Origin: Sporolactobacillus sp. Y61
GTDB taxonomy: Bacteria > Bacillota > Bacilli > Bacillales > Sporolactobacillaceae
Direction: 5' to 3'
Length of the DNA: 64,000 nucleotides
NCBI RefSeq assembly: GCF_040529185.1
Contig: NZ_CP159510.1
Location: 1,798,001 to 1,862,000 of the forward strand
Both the position numbers and the translations under genes were made by a program. Positions 1,373 to 54,140 of this stretch are shown here, piece by piece. Under the pieces are notes generated by a model that was not told the DNA's origin, ran no database searches, and saw nothing but the letters and a program-made list of their open reading frames with translations. Positions within the stretch are counted from its first letter, which is position 1. Every line of letters starts with the position of its first letter.

Positions 1373-1528
1373 CTCTTATCAAGAGCGGCGGAGGGACTGG
1401 CCCGATGATGCCCGGCAACCCCTGTTTTCTGTTTATTCGGAAGACAGGAAGGTGCTAATTCCTGCAGAAATGCAAGTTTCTGGCAGATGAGAGAGGCAGC
1501 GGGCTCCTCTTTCATTGAGGAGTTTTTT
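1373..1528 (+). promoter_or_regulatory. SAM-I (S-box) riboswitch with terminator
   Basis: The aptamer spans about 1373-1494. The P1 arms CTCTTATC and GATGAGAG close it, and the conserved S-box segments are present: AGAG then GGAGGGACTGGCCC, GATGCCCGGCAACC, AAGGTGCTAATTCC. A hairpin at 1504-1522 followed by six T residues is the regulated terminator. Known: SAM binding favours termination. Inferred: metNIQ is expressed when SAM is low. This fits the transporter assignment downstream. Confidence 0.96.
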
Positions 1529-23468: not shown

Positions 23469-23699
23469 TTACCGGGTTTCTGTTTCCCGTCTGTGCTCCA
23501 GTTCCTCACTGGGTTTGAATAGCAGAGTCAGACAATAAAGAGCGCAAAGCCCGACAATGCCGTAGATAATCCGTGCCAGCGCTGTATTTGCGCCGCCGAA
23601 GATCGCTGCAATAAGATCAAATTGAAAGAAGCCGATCAGGCCCCAGTTGATGCCTCCGATAACGAGAATTGCGAGACAGGTTCTCTGTAAACCGCTCAT
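23469..23699 (-). CDS. yuzA: DUF378 membrane protein YuzA
   Basis: This 76-residue protein has two membrane segments (about residues 5-27 and 40-62) and the DUF378 pattern INWGLIGFFQFDLIAAIFGG. Function unknown. ATG 23699 follows GGAGG on the minus strand; a longer reading from 23768 has no such site. In B. subtilis yuzA also lies close to pgi. Confidence 0.87.
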   Translation of the reverse strand: MSGLQRTCLAILVIGGINWGLIGFFQFDLIAAIFGGANTALARIIYGIVGLCALYCLTLLFKPSEELEHRRETETR

Positions 23700-23802
23700 C
23701 TTGTTCCCTCCTTTGTGGACGTGCCCGGTATTCAGTGCATCCCTAGTTTGTCTACATTTCTCAGTCATTATACATGGAAGAAATCTTTTCTCTTATCTTT
23801 GA

Positions 23803-24148
23803 GGTGGGGGTTTTACTGCCCGTTAATGCGGGATAAAGTGAAACTTCAATCAGTGGGGGTGGCTTTATCCCCCACTGATTGTTAGTTGAACCAATCGGGC
23901 TTTTATGGGCAGTTAACCCCCACCGGGGTCAGTTCGTTTACCCACATTACTTTTGAGGTAGGGGTTTTACTGCCCGTTAATGCGGGATAAAGTGAAACTT
24001 CAATCAGTGGGGGGACTTTATCCCCCACTGATTGTTAGTTGAACCAATCGGGCTTTTATGGGCAGTTAACCCCCACCCGGGTCAGTTCGTTTACCCACAT
24101 TACTTTTGAGGTGGGGGTTTTACTGCCCGTTAATGCGGGATAAAGTGA
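23803..24148 (+). repeat. Tandem array of long palindromic repeats (2 full, 1 partial copy)
   Basis: Copy 1 is 23803-23924, copy 2 is 23957-24077, and a partial copy 3 is 24110-24148, with a period of 153-154 bases. Each full copy has terminal inverted repeats (GGTGGGGGTTTTACTGCCC against GGGCAGTTAACCCCCACC). Inside is a 13-bp perfect hairpin (23847-23859 with 23869-23881). A 32-base spacer separates copies and is itself repeated. No reading frame is evident. Copies in other places are listed separately. The rest of the gap 23700-24270 holds only the pgi promoter. Confidence 0.95.
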
Positions 24149-25792: not shown

Positions 25793-26086
25793 GTGAAAGG
25801 GAAAAGCAGCGGTATGTTCCCAAAACTGGTGAGTATTCTCCTGACCGTGATACAAATTATCATTACACTCTATATTCTGCTTAAATTTTTCGGCGCGAAC
25901 GAAACACCGTTTGTGGTTTTTCTGAATGGTCTCAGCGCGCCGCTTCTCAATCCCTTCAGAAATATATTTGATTCGGTCGTATTCAGCGGACATATATTGG
26001 ATCTCTCAGCTGTTTTTGCTCTAATCGTATACAGCGTCGTAGGTTTCGGACTTCAAAAAATCCTCAGTATCCTCAAAATGAAATAA
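25793..26086 (+). CDS. YggT family membrane protein
   Basis: This 97-residue protein belongs to the YggT family, with two membrane segments (about residues 10-32 and 66-88) and the central PLLNPFRNIF pattern. YggT proteins are found near division genes in some bacteria, but the role is unclear. The listed start is GTG 25793. ATG 25814 is an alternative; neither has a strong ribosome site. The stop codon lies inside the first bases of a degenerate repeat copy. Confidence 0.78.
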   Translation: MKGKSSGMFPKLVSILLTVIQIIITLYILLKFFGANETPFVVFLNGLSAPLLNPFRNIFDSVVFSGHILDLSAVFALIVYSVVGFGLQKILSILKMK

Positions 26087-26194
26087 AGCGAAACGTCTAT
26101 CAGTGGGGGGCGCACAGGATGAACGCCTTCGTTTTTCGCCAGTGCATCCCCCACGGATTGTTCGCTGTGGTACTGCCCTTAATACGGGATAAAA
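26083..26194 (+). repeat. Degenerate copy of the palindromic repeat family
   Basis: The sequence ATAAAGCGAAAC then TATCAGTGGGGGG, and later CATCCCCCACGGATTGTTCG and CTGCCCTTAATACGGG, matches the array copies in order. Its loop is longer, with GCGCACAG and TTCGTTTTT, shared with the copy at 53981. The copy starts within the YggT stop codon. Confidence 0.8.
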
Positions 26195-26366: not shown

Positions 26367-26439
26367 GGGGCATTAGCTCAGCTGGGAGAGCGTTGCCTTC
26401 GCATGGCAGAGGTCAGGGGTTCGATCCCCCTATGCTCCA
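26367..26439 (+). tRNA. tRNA-Ala, anticodon CGC
   Basis: A full cloverleaf is seen: acceptor GGGGCAT/ATGCTCC, D arm GCTC/GAGC, anticodon arm TTGCC/GGCAG with loop TTCGCAT, and T arm AGGGG/CCCCT with TTCGATC. The third to fifth loop bases give anticodon CGC, reading GCG alanine codons. G3 opposite T70 is the alanine identity pair. CCA is not encoded. Confidence 0.95.
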
Positions 26440-27212: not shown

Positions 27213-27254
27213 AAAATGCGCGGTGGCCATGAAACAGCCACTGCGCATTTTTTT
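27213..27254 (+). terminator. Terminator after the YdeI-domain gene
   Basis: A long stem (AAATGCGC-GTGGC with GCCAC-GCGCATTT) ends in eight T residues. Confidence 0.9.
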
Positions 27255-27261
27255 AGTGCGC

Positions 27262-27405
27262 ATGAACGGGCAGTACCCCTCAGGGGGGATGTGAAGGTAA
27301 AATAACATGCCCTGAGAGGGGGATAACAGCCCGCAGAAGCCCGATAGGTTCAACGAACAATCAGTGGTGGATGAAGCCCTCCCACTGATTGAAGTTTCAC
27401 TTTAT
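27262..27405 (-). repeat. Inverted copy of the palindromic repeat family
   Basis: Read on the minus strand from 27405, it has ATAAAGTGAAACTTCAATCA, GTGGGAGGGC, a CACTGATTGTTCGTTGAACC segment and ATCGGGCTTCTGCGGGC, in the same order as the array at 23.8 kb. The central hairpin is kept with changes in both arms. It lies between a terminator and the yfnA promoter. Confidence 0.88.
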
Positions 27406-41997: not shown

Positions 41998-42987
41998 TTA
42001 ATGCAGAATCTGAATGGTCATTGTCCGACGCCCGAATTGGAGGGCCTGCTGCCGGGTCGGAAGATGGATATCGATTCTTTTTCCTTTAATATTTCCCCCT
42101 GTATCTCCGGCAGTATAGATACCATAACCCGGTACTTTGACCCGCGAACCGAGTGGAATGACGCCTGGATCAACCGCAATGACTTTTGCATTCGGGTTAT
42201 CTGAGAAGTTAATACCCGTGGCCGATATGCCGCCGAGCGCATAGCTTGTTGCTGTAACCGTAATGGATGAACCAGCCTGCCTCTGAGGCGCAGGCGCTTT
42301 TTTCGCTGCTTTATGAGTTGCTTTCGTGACCTTAGTGACCTTAACAGGCTTCACCGGTTTTCTGGCAGCCTGTTCTTTCTCACGGTCCGCAATAGCTGCG
42401 GCTTCGGCAGCTTTTCTTGCTTTTTCCTTTGCCTCAGCCTTTGCCTCAGCTTTTGCTTTGGCCTTTGCTTTGGCTTCTGCTTTAGCTTTTCTCTCAGCAG
42501 CAGCCTTTTCTTCCTGTTTCATTTCAGCGGCTCTTGCTTTGTATGCACTGGCTTCATCGGACGAAGAGTACACGGTATACAGTGCTGTTTTTGTATTTGG
42601 GCCAACCAGTCCGTTCTCAGCGATGTGCTGGTTTGACTGGAAGTGCTTCACGGCATCTGCTGTCAATTCCCCAAATACGCCATTCACTTCTCCTCCATAA
42701 TAACCCAGTAAGCGAAGTGTATCCTGAATCTCTGCAACGGAAGGACCGCTGTCTCCCAATTGCAACAAACTATTTCCGAATATTCTGGTGATACTGTTAC
42801 TATCTGGTTGTAAACTCGGATCATTCTGACTGAATCCTACTGCTGTTTTGAGTTCAGGATCTTGACTTTTTACAGCGTGACTATCATTTGTACTGCTCGT
42901 TTTCGCGAAGGCAATCGTTGTCGGTGCAAGAATACCGAAAAACACCGTCAGGGTTGTCAGCGCGGTCAGCCTTTTAATGATATTCAT
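41998..42987 (-). CDS. Secreted 3D-domain cell-wall hydrolase with peptidoglycan-binding domain
   Basis: The 329-residue protein has a signal peptide (1-28), a PG_binding_1 domain (about 75-140), an Ala/Lys/Glu-rich helical linker (150-225) and a C-terminal 3D domain. In the last, DPGVIPLGSRV, AGDTGG and RIDIHLPT hold the three conserved Asp residues. It is like YocH and Sps/YabE in the 3D part, so muralytic activity is likely. AAGGAGG precedes ATG. A WalR-type box lies upstream. Confidence 0.9.
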   Translation of the reverse strand: MNIIKRLTALTTLTVFFGILAPTTIAFAKTSSTNDSHAVKSQDPELKTAVGFSQNDPSLQPDSNSITRIFGNSLLQLGDSGPSVAEIQDTLRLLGYYGGEVNGVFGELTADAVKHFQSNQHIAENGLVGPNTKTALYTVYSSSDEASAYKARAAEMKQEEKAAAERKAKAEAKAKAKAKAEAKAEAKEKARKAAEAAAIADREKEQAARKPVKPVKVTKVTKATHKAAKKAPAPQRQAGSSITVTATSYALGGISATGINFSDNPNAKVIAVDPGVIPLGSRVKVPGYGIYTAGDTGGNIKGKRIDIHLPTRQQALQFGRRTMTIQILH

Positions 42988-44779: not shown

Positions 44780-45038
44780 GTAAAAATAAAGAAGCCCAAA
44801 GGATAAGTAAATTCCTTTGGGCTTCGCTGATATCACTGAGCGCACGACAGACCTGTCATCACGCTTCGCTGTTCAACGCTGAATAGAAGGCGGAAAATGC
44901 GCCGTCACATCATCCTTCTTTCATCCAGACTGTACTGTCGGTCCCGGCATCTCACCGGATCTGCCAAAAGGCTCGCGGACTCTGGACGTTTAAATCCAAT
45001 ACCGCCGGTCGGGAATCACACCCTGCCCTGAAGGAATA
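44780..45038 (-). promoter_or_regulatory. FMN riboswitch (RFN element) with terminator
   Basis: On the minus strand, from about 45038 to 44912, the RFN core is seen: TTCCTTCAGGGCAGGGTG, GCGAGCC, GGCAGATCCGGTGAGA, CCGGGACCGACAGT, GTCTGGATGAAAGAAGGAT. A hairpin at 44791-44825 (13-bp stem) with a T-rich tract is the terminator. FMN binding is expected to stop ribU transcription. Confidence 0.96.
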
Positions 45039-45059
45039 TTTGATTCAATTTACACATAC

Positions 45060-53980: not shown

Positions 53981-54140
53981 ATAAAGTGAAACTTCAATCA
54001 GCCGGGATTTTCGGGCGCACAGATCGTGCCCGTGCAGGCATTGCAACAGGACGTCCTCGTTTTTAGCCTAGGCCCATCCCCCAATGATTGTTTGTTGAAC
54101 CCATCGGGCTCCTGCGGGCAGGTATCCCCCGCCTGGGCAT
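53981..54140 (+). repeat. Copy of the palindromic repeat family with long loop
   Basis: It opens with ATAAAGTGAAACTTCAATCA like the array and ends with ATGATTGTTTGTTGAACCCATCGGGCT and GCGGGCAGGTATCCCCC (in part). Between them the long loop shares GCGCACAG and CTCGTTTTT with the copy at 26083. It lies directly between the PAP2 gene and the cyclophilin remnant. Confidence 0.85.

Follow-up and report, generated by a model that had tools for sequence, protein, structure and literature searches.

What is repeated in the tandem array upstream of pgi in Sporolactobacillus sp. Y61, where does one unit end, and how did the units come to stand side by side? The array was found at positions 23798-24148 of the 64,000-nucleotide stretch of DNA analysed here (the window), with a period of 153, 97% matches and a score of 674 in TRF. 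It is placed between divergent frames: downstream of it, the frame 24271-25626 matches glucose-6-phosphate isomerase (pgi), and on the other strand lies a 99-codon frame (23469-23768), with the array upstream of its start. The array is probably a local cluster of tandem copies of a bcr1-type mobile repeat, non-autonomous and dispersed through the genome, which is inserted at ATAAA with the help of an enzyme acting in trans.

Units and boundaries of the array

The initial annotation described a period of 153-154, two nearly identical units and a partial copy, and all of these are present, as are, in the letters, its outer arms of about 18-19 bases (GGTGGGGGTTTTACTGCCC / GGGCAGTTAACCCCCACC) and its 13-bp inner hairpin (CAATCAGTGGGGG / CCCCCACTGATTG). 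However, the palindromic unit of 120/121 bases that it delimited has wrong boundaries. When one array period was compared with the genome by BLAST, single copies elsewhere aligned to query positions 36-153 and then to 1-40; the left arm of the delimited unit therefore belongs to the preceding copy, and its frame is a circular permutation of the natural unit, which starts with ATAAAGTGAAACTTC and ends with GCGGGATAAA. Isolated copies have the form ATAAA-GTGAAACTTC...GCGGG-ATAAA and are about 157 nt long. Read in this frame, the array consists of one 3' remnant and two full units, with one ATAAA between the units held in common (Table 1). The truncated copy is thus the first one and not the third, and where a third copy seemed to stop after GATAAAGTGA, unit 2 has its regular 3' end (ATAAA, 24140-24144). 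This end is followed by GTGA, whose match to the element start may be due to chance or mark a remnant of four bases. Unit 2 is the top-scoring match of the whole genome in cmsearch. An overlap of exactly five bases between neighbouring units was also seen in other genomes (e.g., G089, G086, and G044).

Table 1. Element copies and hairpins located in the window
Feature	Position	Strand	Evidence and remarks
3' remnant, 5'-truncated element copy	23787..23837	+	model positions 109-159; nhmmer E 1.2e-10; query 1-40 tails
Full unit 1, ATAAA...ATAAA	23833..23991	+	cmsearch 164.9 bits; nhmmer model 1-159
Full unit 2	23987..24144	+	cmsearch 168.2 bits; ATAAA 23987-23991 common to unit 1
Hairpin P1 of unit 1	23847..23881	+	arms 23847-23859 and 23869-23881; both-side changes in 10/13 pairs
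Hairpin P2 of unit 1, foot	23905-23913 with 23969-23977	+	P2 spans 23905..23977
Hairpin P2 of unit 1, distal arm	23917-23924 with 23957-23964	+	one mismatch
Short degenerate element copy	26083..26193	+	38.7 bits
Further full element copy	27252..27405	-	cmsearch 124.4 bits
Element copy with 63-nt module nested in P1 loop	53981..54167	+	56.5 bits; 3' end degraded

A dispersed and folded element

In the genome (3,224,419 bases, one contig), one array period gave 82 BLAST matches at E<=10. A covariance model, R1, was built from 62 full-length copies, the 62-sequence alignment representing 62 of 88 selected copies. At E<=0.01, R1 matched 87 times in this genome and 82 times in a genome of the same species, a few matches being opposite-strand echoes; at E<=1e-6, 71 matches (again with a few echoes) and 65 matches were obtained, respectively, and the 13 other congeneric species searched had no match. 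With up to 150 candidates scored per genome in these genome and genus scans and up to 19 in the order-wide scan, the latter showed matches at E<=1e-10 in 42 of the 150 genomes, belonging to 29 of 83 genera of the order. A 157-nt DNA query matched 12 of the 58 genomes searched as relatives, this genome included. A 24-letter core was found in at least 120 stretches of named genome contigs, and among the matches listed are records labelled Lysinibacillus, Cytobacillus, Sporosarcina, Neobacillus, Peribacillus, Psychrobacillus, Sporolactobacillus, Terrilactibacillus, Amphibacillus, Caldibacillus, Paenibacillus, Bacillus, and others. In the plasmid search, matches were restricted to Pseudalkalibacillus and Peribacillus, with weak ones in Klebsiella and Cryobacterium and none in B. 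cereus-group plasmids; phage records gave no element match.

The element occupies about sixty dispersed positions in this genome. The count used below, 61 positions, was obtained with arrays merged and with opposite-strand echoes and the weakest R1 matches omitted (among the latter 1884614, 1975828, 728173, 517678, 2799412, 3084931, 1824083, and 2831675). The second half of the contig is denser in positions (39 vs 22 of 61, p 0.04). At many loci, the placement is intergenic. The element is often found in sense orientation close to the 3' end of a gene, between stop codon and terminator: an outward terminator-like hairpin was found on the 3' side of 22 of the 61 positions and on the 5' side of 6 (binomial p 0.004), and at 12 of the 61 the stop codon of the upstream open frame falls inside the 5' pentamer, natural ends and frames cut by insertion being counted together. 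Inward terminator-like hairpins number 14 of 61 on the 3' side and 6 of 61 on the 5' side. A simple script rather than a gene caller was used for both the terminator and the stop-codon counts. The sense position between stop codon and terminator means that the element would be transcribed within mRNA 3' ends. The array in the window, unlike many copies, is not at a gene 3' end.

The unit delimited by the initial annotation (23803-23926) folds at -70.9 kcal/mol, compared to -38.5 +/- 4.1 kcal/mol for shuffled sequences, and none of 200 shuffles was as good. In the natural frame, the element has two hairpins, P1 and P2, and both carry strong compensatory change. Changes on both sides were found in 6 of 9 pairs in each of the two P2 helices, and the 31 named pairs of the three helices are paired in 94.0% of cells of the 62-sequence alignment. 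Both-side changes occur in 22 of these 31 pairs, compared to 8.6 +/- 1.9 after shuffling and 7-14 with partners slid, the 31 pairs having been picked by eye from the same alignment that was later scored. RNAalifold, unaided, proposed 19 pairs, 13 of them with both-side changes. The earlier suggestion of a structured mobile or RNA element, to be examined by a covariance-model search of the genome and its relatives, is thus borne out by many copies with paired changes. In 140 copies, G-U cells outnumber A-C cells in P1 (77 vs 35) and in the P2 foot (60 vs 21), whereas the distal P2 stem is reversed (63 vs 80); these cells are related by descent and not independent. From the G-U excess in P1 and the P2 foot, the ATAAAGTGAAAC strand is the likelier one to fold. 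It is proposed that the top strand folds as P1 and P2 and that changes which keep the pairs would be selected.

An immobile structured RNA or riboswitch-like regulator, duplicated by recombination only, would account for the covariation and the stable fold, but it is highly improbable given about sixty dispersed positions in one genome, the lack of matches in 13 sister species, single-pentamer sites at two loci, and the absence of a family at gathering score in Rfam, where the only match was of 17 bits against a cut-off of 61.

The target pentamer and the question of movement

Among 144 distinct full-length copies, 122 carry ATAAA at both ends, a count made from full-length HMM matches only and hence biased toward intact ends. 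The remaining 22 depart from ATAAA on a single side: the other side always retains it, and no copy has the same variant on both. No motif was found beyond the pentamer: across 12 flanking positions on each side of 140 copies, the information content never exceeded 0.29 bits per position. The ends are not terminal inverted repeats, since locally aligning one end with the reverse complement of the other gave a score of 4.4 for 62 copies, compared to 4.7 +/- 1.1 for shuffled sequences. For the empty-site search, the flanks of 18 positions were joined around one ATAAA and searched in the genus. Alignments crossing the junction were obtained for two positions, with 8 and 7 sister sequences aligned (15 of the junction-crossing or junction-near ones in all). 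At locus 2340158, sister L316 reads CTTAA-ATAAA-CCTGAG where this genome reads ATA-ATAAA-element-ATAAA-CCTCAT, and at locus 2082450 only one AATAAA is present in sisters L331 and L332 where the element sits here. A single ATAAA is therefore seen in 3 of the 15 sister sequences, with two in the filled site, and the other 12 have no pentamer there. A search of viral contigs for an empty site of the B. cereus-type locus gave none. The single-ATAAA sister sites, together with the absence of the element from 13 sister species, argue for a gain of copies in this species. The element would insert at ATAAA (TTTAT), leaving one pentamer on each side. No gene was seen within the element, and the enzyme of insertion would act in trans; no link to a Y1 transposase or a reverse transcriptase was found in the genomes examined.

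Each copy ends in the target pentamer, so copies can stack head to tail with one ATAAA in common, and the array may have grown by repeated insertion of this kind. Recombination between stacked units would then alter their number. Unit number does differ between two strains at four loci. At positions 1687926 and 1620927, the second strain has two units and this genome one, and on reading, the single copy resembles a fusion between the 5' part of one unit of the pair and the 3' part of the other. At position 1935451, the second strain has one unit and this genome three, and at 2910157 one unit against a full and a partial copy, although the second strain is a draft assembly and these two lower counts could be collapsed repeats. 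Reading the units of the two strains supports the unequal exchange between tandem units that had been suggested at first.

IS200/IS605 elements and REP-associated sequences have a target of 4-5 nt, no terminal inverted repeats, and subterminal hairpins, and a single-stranded DNA movement by a Y1 (HUH) transposase of either kind would agree with the five-letter target without further motif, the non-inverted ends, and the hairpins near both ends. The 22 copies with unlike pentamers also keep ATAAA on the other side as if one pentamer were borne by the element. In contrast to those systems, no linked or consistently present Y1 transposase accompanies the element. Y1_Tnp was matched in 50 of 58 relatives, both with and without the element, G044 is rich in element copies and has no Y1_Tnp match, and the best-scoring 20 Y1 loci (about 3.4 kb each) contained no element-like sequence. 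Furthermore, orientation is not biased between the halves of the chromosome (11+/11- and 22+/17-, p 0.79, with the origin position assumed), and P1 and P2 are dissimilar by eye. This route is therefore considered rather unlikely.

The small size, the many copies, the pentamer on both sides, and the single pentamer in three sister sequences would also suit a classical MITE, derived by deletion from an insertion sequence and mobilised by a DDE transposase with duplication of TTTAT; bcr1-bcr3 are themselves called MITE-like in the description available (PMC3446304). This explanation is doubtful too, as the true ends are not inverted repeats and a non-ATAAA pentamer never recurs on both flanks of one of the 144 copies. 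A larger element with the ends ATAAAGTGAAAC and GCGGGATAAA and a transposase was not seen among separated halves either: most of the gaps in 46 separated half-pairs are of 45-77 nt, and nine wider or odd ones that were read contain folded modules, except that in L078 a gene taken for etfA lies between two separate copies. A retroelement, whose folded transcript would be copied into DNA at ATAAA by a reverse transcriptase, is very unlikely. It would explain the frequent sense position at 3' ends and the structure of one strand (G-U 137 vs A-C 56 in P1 and the P2 foot combined), but RVT_1 was not matched in G000 and G220, the two element-bearing genomes of this species, and was matched in 7 of the 13 element-free sisters, and there is no excess of 5' truncation, with 63 matches to the 5' end only and 73 to the 3' end only (copies split by a module being counted on both sides). 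The preferred explanation remains a gene-free repeat mobilised in trans.

Relation to bcr1 and the nested modules

The bcr1 repeat of the B. cereus group carries TTTAT at both ends. It was reportedly treated by Okstad in 2004, Klevan in 2007, and Kristoffersen in 2011. In the descriptions available, bcr1 is the most abundant B. cereus repeat, with 11 to 130 copies and a mean of 39, and the first such repeat restricted to the B. cereus group; plasmid copies exist, and the mobility of BCRs is linked to a TTTAT motif (PMC6542083). It is also listed among folded families, with a size of 147 or 167 bp (PMC2267715). The bcr repeats are described as lying mainly on chromosomes and as peculiar to the B. 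cereus group (PMC8725734), and bcr1-bcr3 as resembling MITEs and occurring in UTRs and operon gaps (PMC3446304). The anatomy of bcr1 (about 150 bp in high copy, TTTAT ends, and conserved secondary structure) is that of the element, and as far as these descriptions go, both fold, contain the TTTAT motif, resemble MITEs, and reach tens of copies per chromosome; bcr1 is reported within transcripts, where the element would also lie. The initial annotation knew of no named Bacillales element that fits; bcr1, by its descriptions, does so in size, motif, copy number, and folding. BOX and RUP of pneumococcus, ERIC, NEMIS, and EFAR are, by description, likewise short, dispersed, and foldable (PMC3733652, PMC2267715).

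Homology is suggested by two viral-collection contigs, L206 and L217, which carry a 158-nt copy with both pentamers that scores 140.2 bits to R1 over its whole length, R1 having been built without contigs of this collection. L206 encodes a TIGR03601 bacteriocin. We take contigs L201-L227 to be of the B. cereus group, which the one bacteriocin family match in L206 would support, and the element of L206 and L217 would then be bcr1. The bacteriocin family is described from many B. cereus-group strains and also from B. licheniformis (PMC2674419). The P1-P2 core is GTTGAACCMATCGGGC here and GCCCTCACCAATCGGGC in L206; the core pattern GTTNGTTGAACCNATCGGGC was not found in viral contigs, and a DNA search for the host of contigs L204 and L208 gave no match. 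The element is therefore apparently related to bcr1, a name that rests on anatomy, in the case of bcr1 taken from its descriptions, and on the homologue in L206 and L217. Unlike bcr1, reported in the papers cited from the B. cereus group only, it was found in 29 of 83 genera of the order, and this host range is why it is called bcr1-type and not bcr1 itself. With a PGI protein query, none of the 397 genomes of the order sample exceeded 89% identity, so the sample includes no B. cereus-group chromosome. Among the open-access papers searched, no report of the family outside the B. cereus group was found, and a search of the open literature with the core letters returned nothing relevant, only unrelated fly work.

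A further difference from bcr1 is a frequently nested 63-nt module, which is a second repeat family. Of 58 single-position copies, 23 are at least 160 nt long and carry all or part of it in the P1 loop. The module consists of two ACAGGAYGT hairpins and an outer stem (folded by reading only) and is located in the P1 loop or the P1-P2 joiner of many copies, as well as alone or in tandem (e.g., window 54008-54069, G017:C1:820242-820592, L099, L116, L182, and L310). It has 36 matches in this genome and occurs in other genera; in G017, it is repeated in tandem with a period of 63. In L182, it appears nested in itself. Relatives of the module were read in inverted orientation in the joiner after P1 of two viral-collection contigs (L205 and L218). 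In two copies from one genome (L099 1880-2400 and L113 1750-2265), the P1-P2 joiner was read as a tandem series of four to five hairpin units, each about 54 nt long. Other short tandem repeats of the window, listed by TRF, are at 703-822 (24 bp) and 42417-42498 (6-24 bp units), and its other structured RNAs are an FMN riboswitch (44909-45039, minus strand), a SAM riboswitch (1373-1493, plus strand), and a tRNA (26367-26439, plus strand).

A bolder proposal, which we regard as quite improbable, is that the elements form an order-wide, gene-free mobile class, selected as a folded single strand, inserted at a five-letter site by a kind of enzyme new to such repeats, and docking other folded repeats. 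The P1 loop and the P1-P2 joiner would be its docking places, where the 63-nt module and larger hairpin arrays would build growing modular structures. The best reading is a more modest one, in which the element belongs to a known kind whose range exceeds the one described so far, the nested 63-nt module being an additional and puzzling feature. If the homology holds, bcr1 would be one branch of a family spread across many Bacillales genera, a family with 60-70 copies in one Sporolactobacillus-like species that was not found in 13 sister species.
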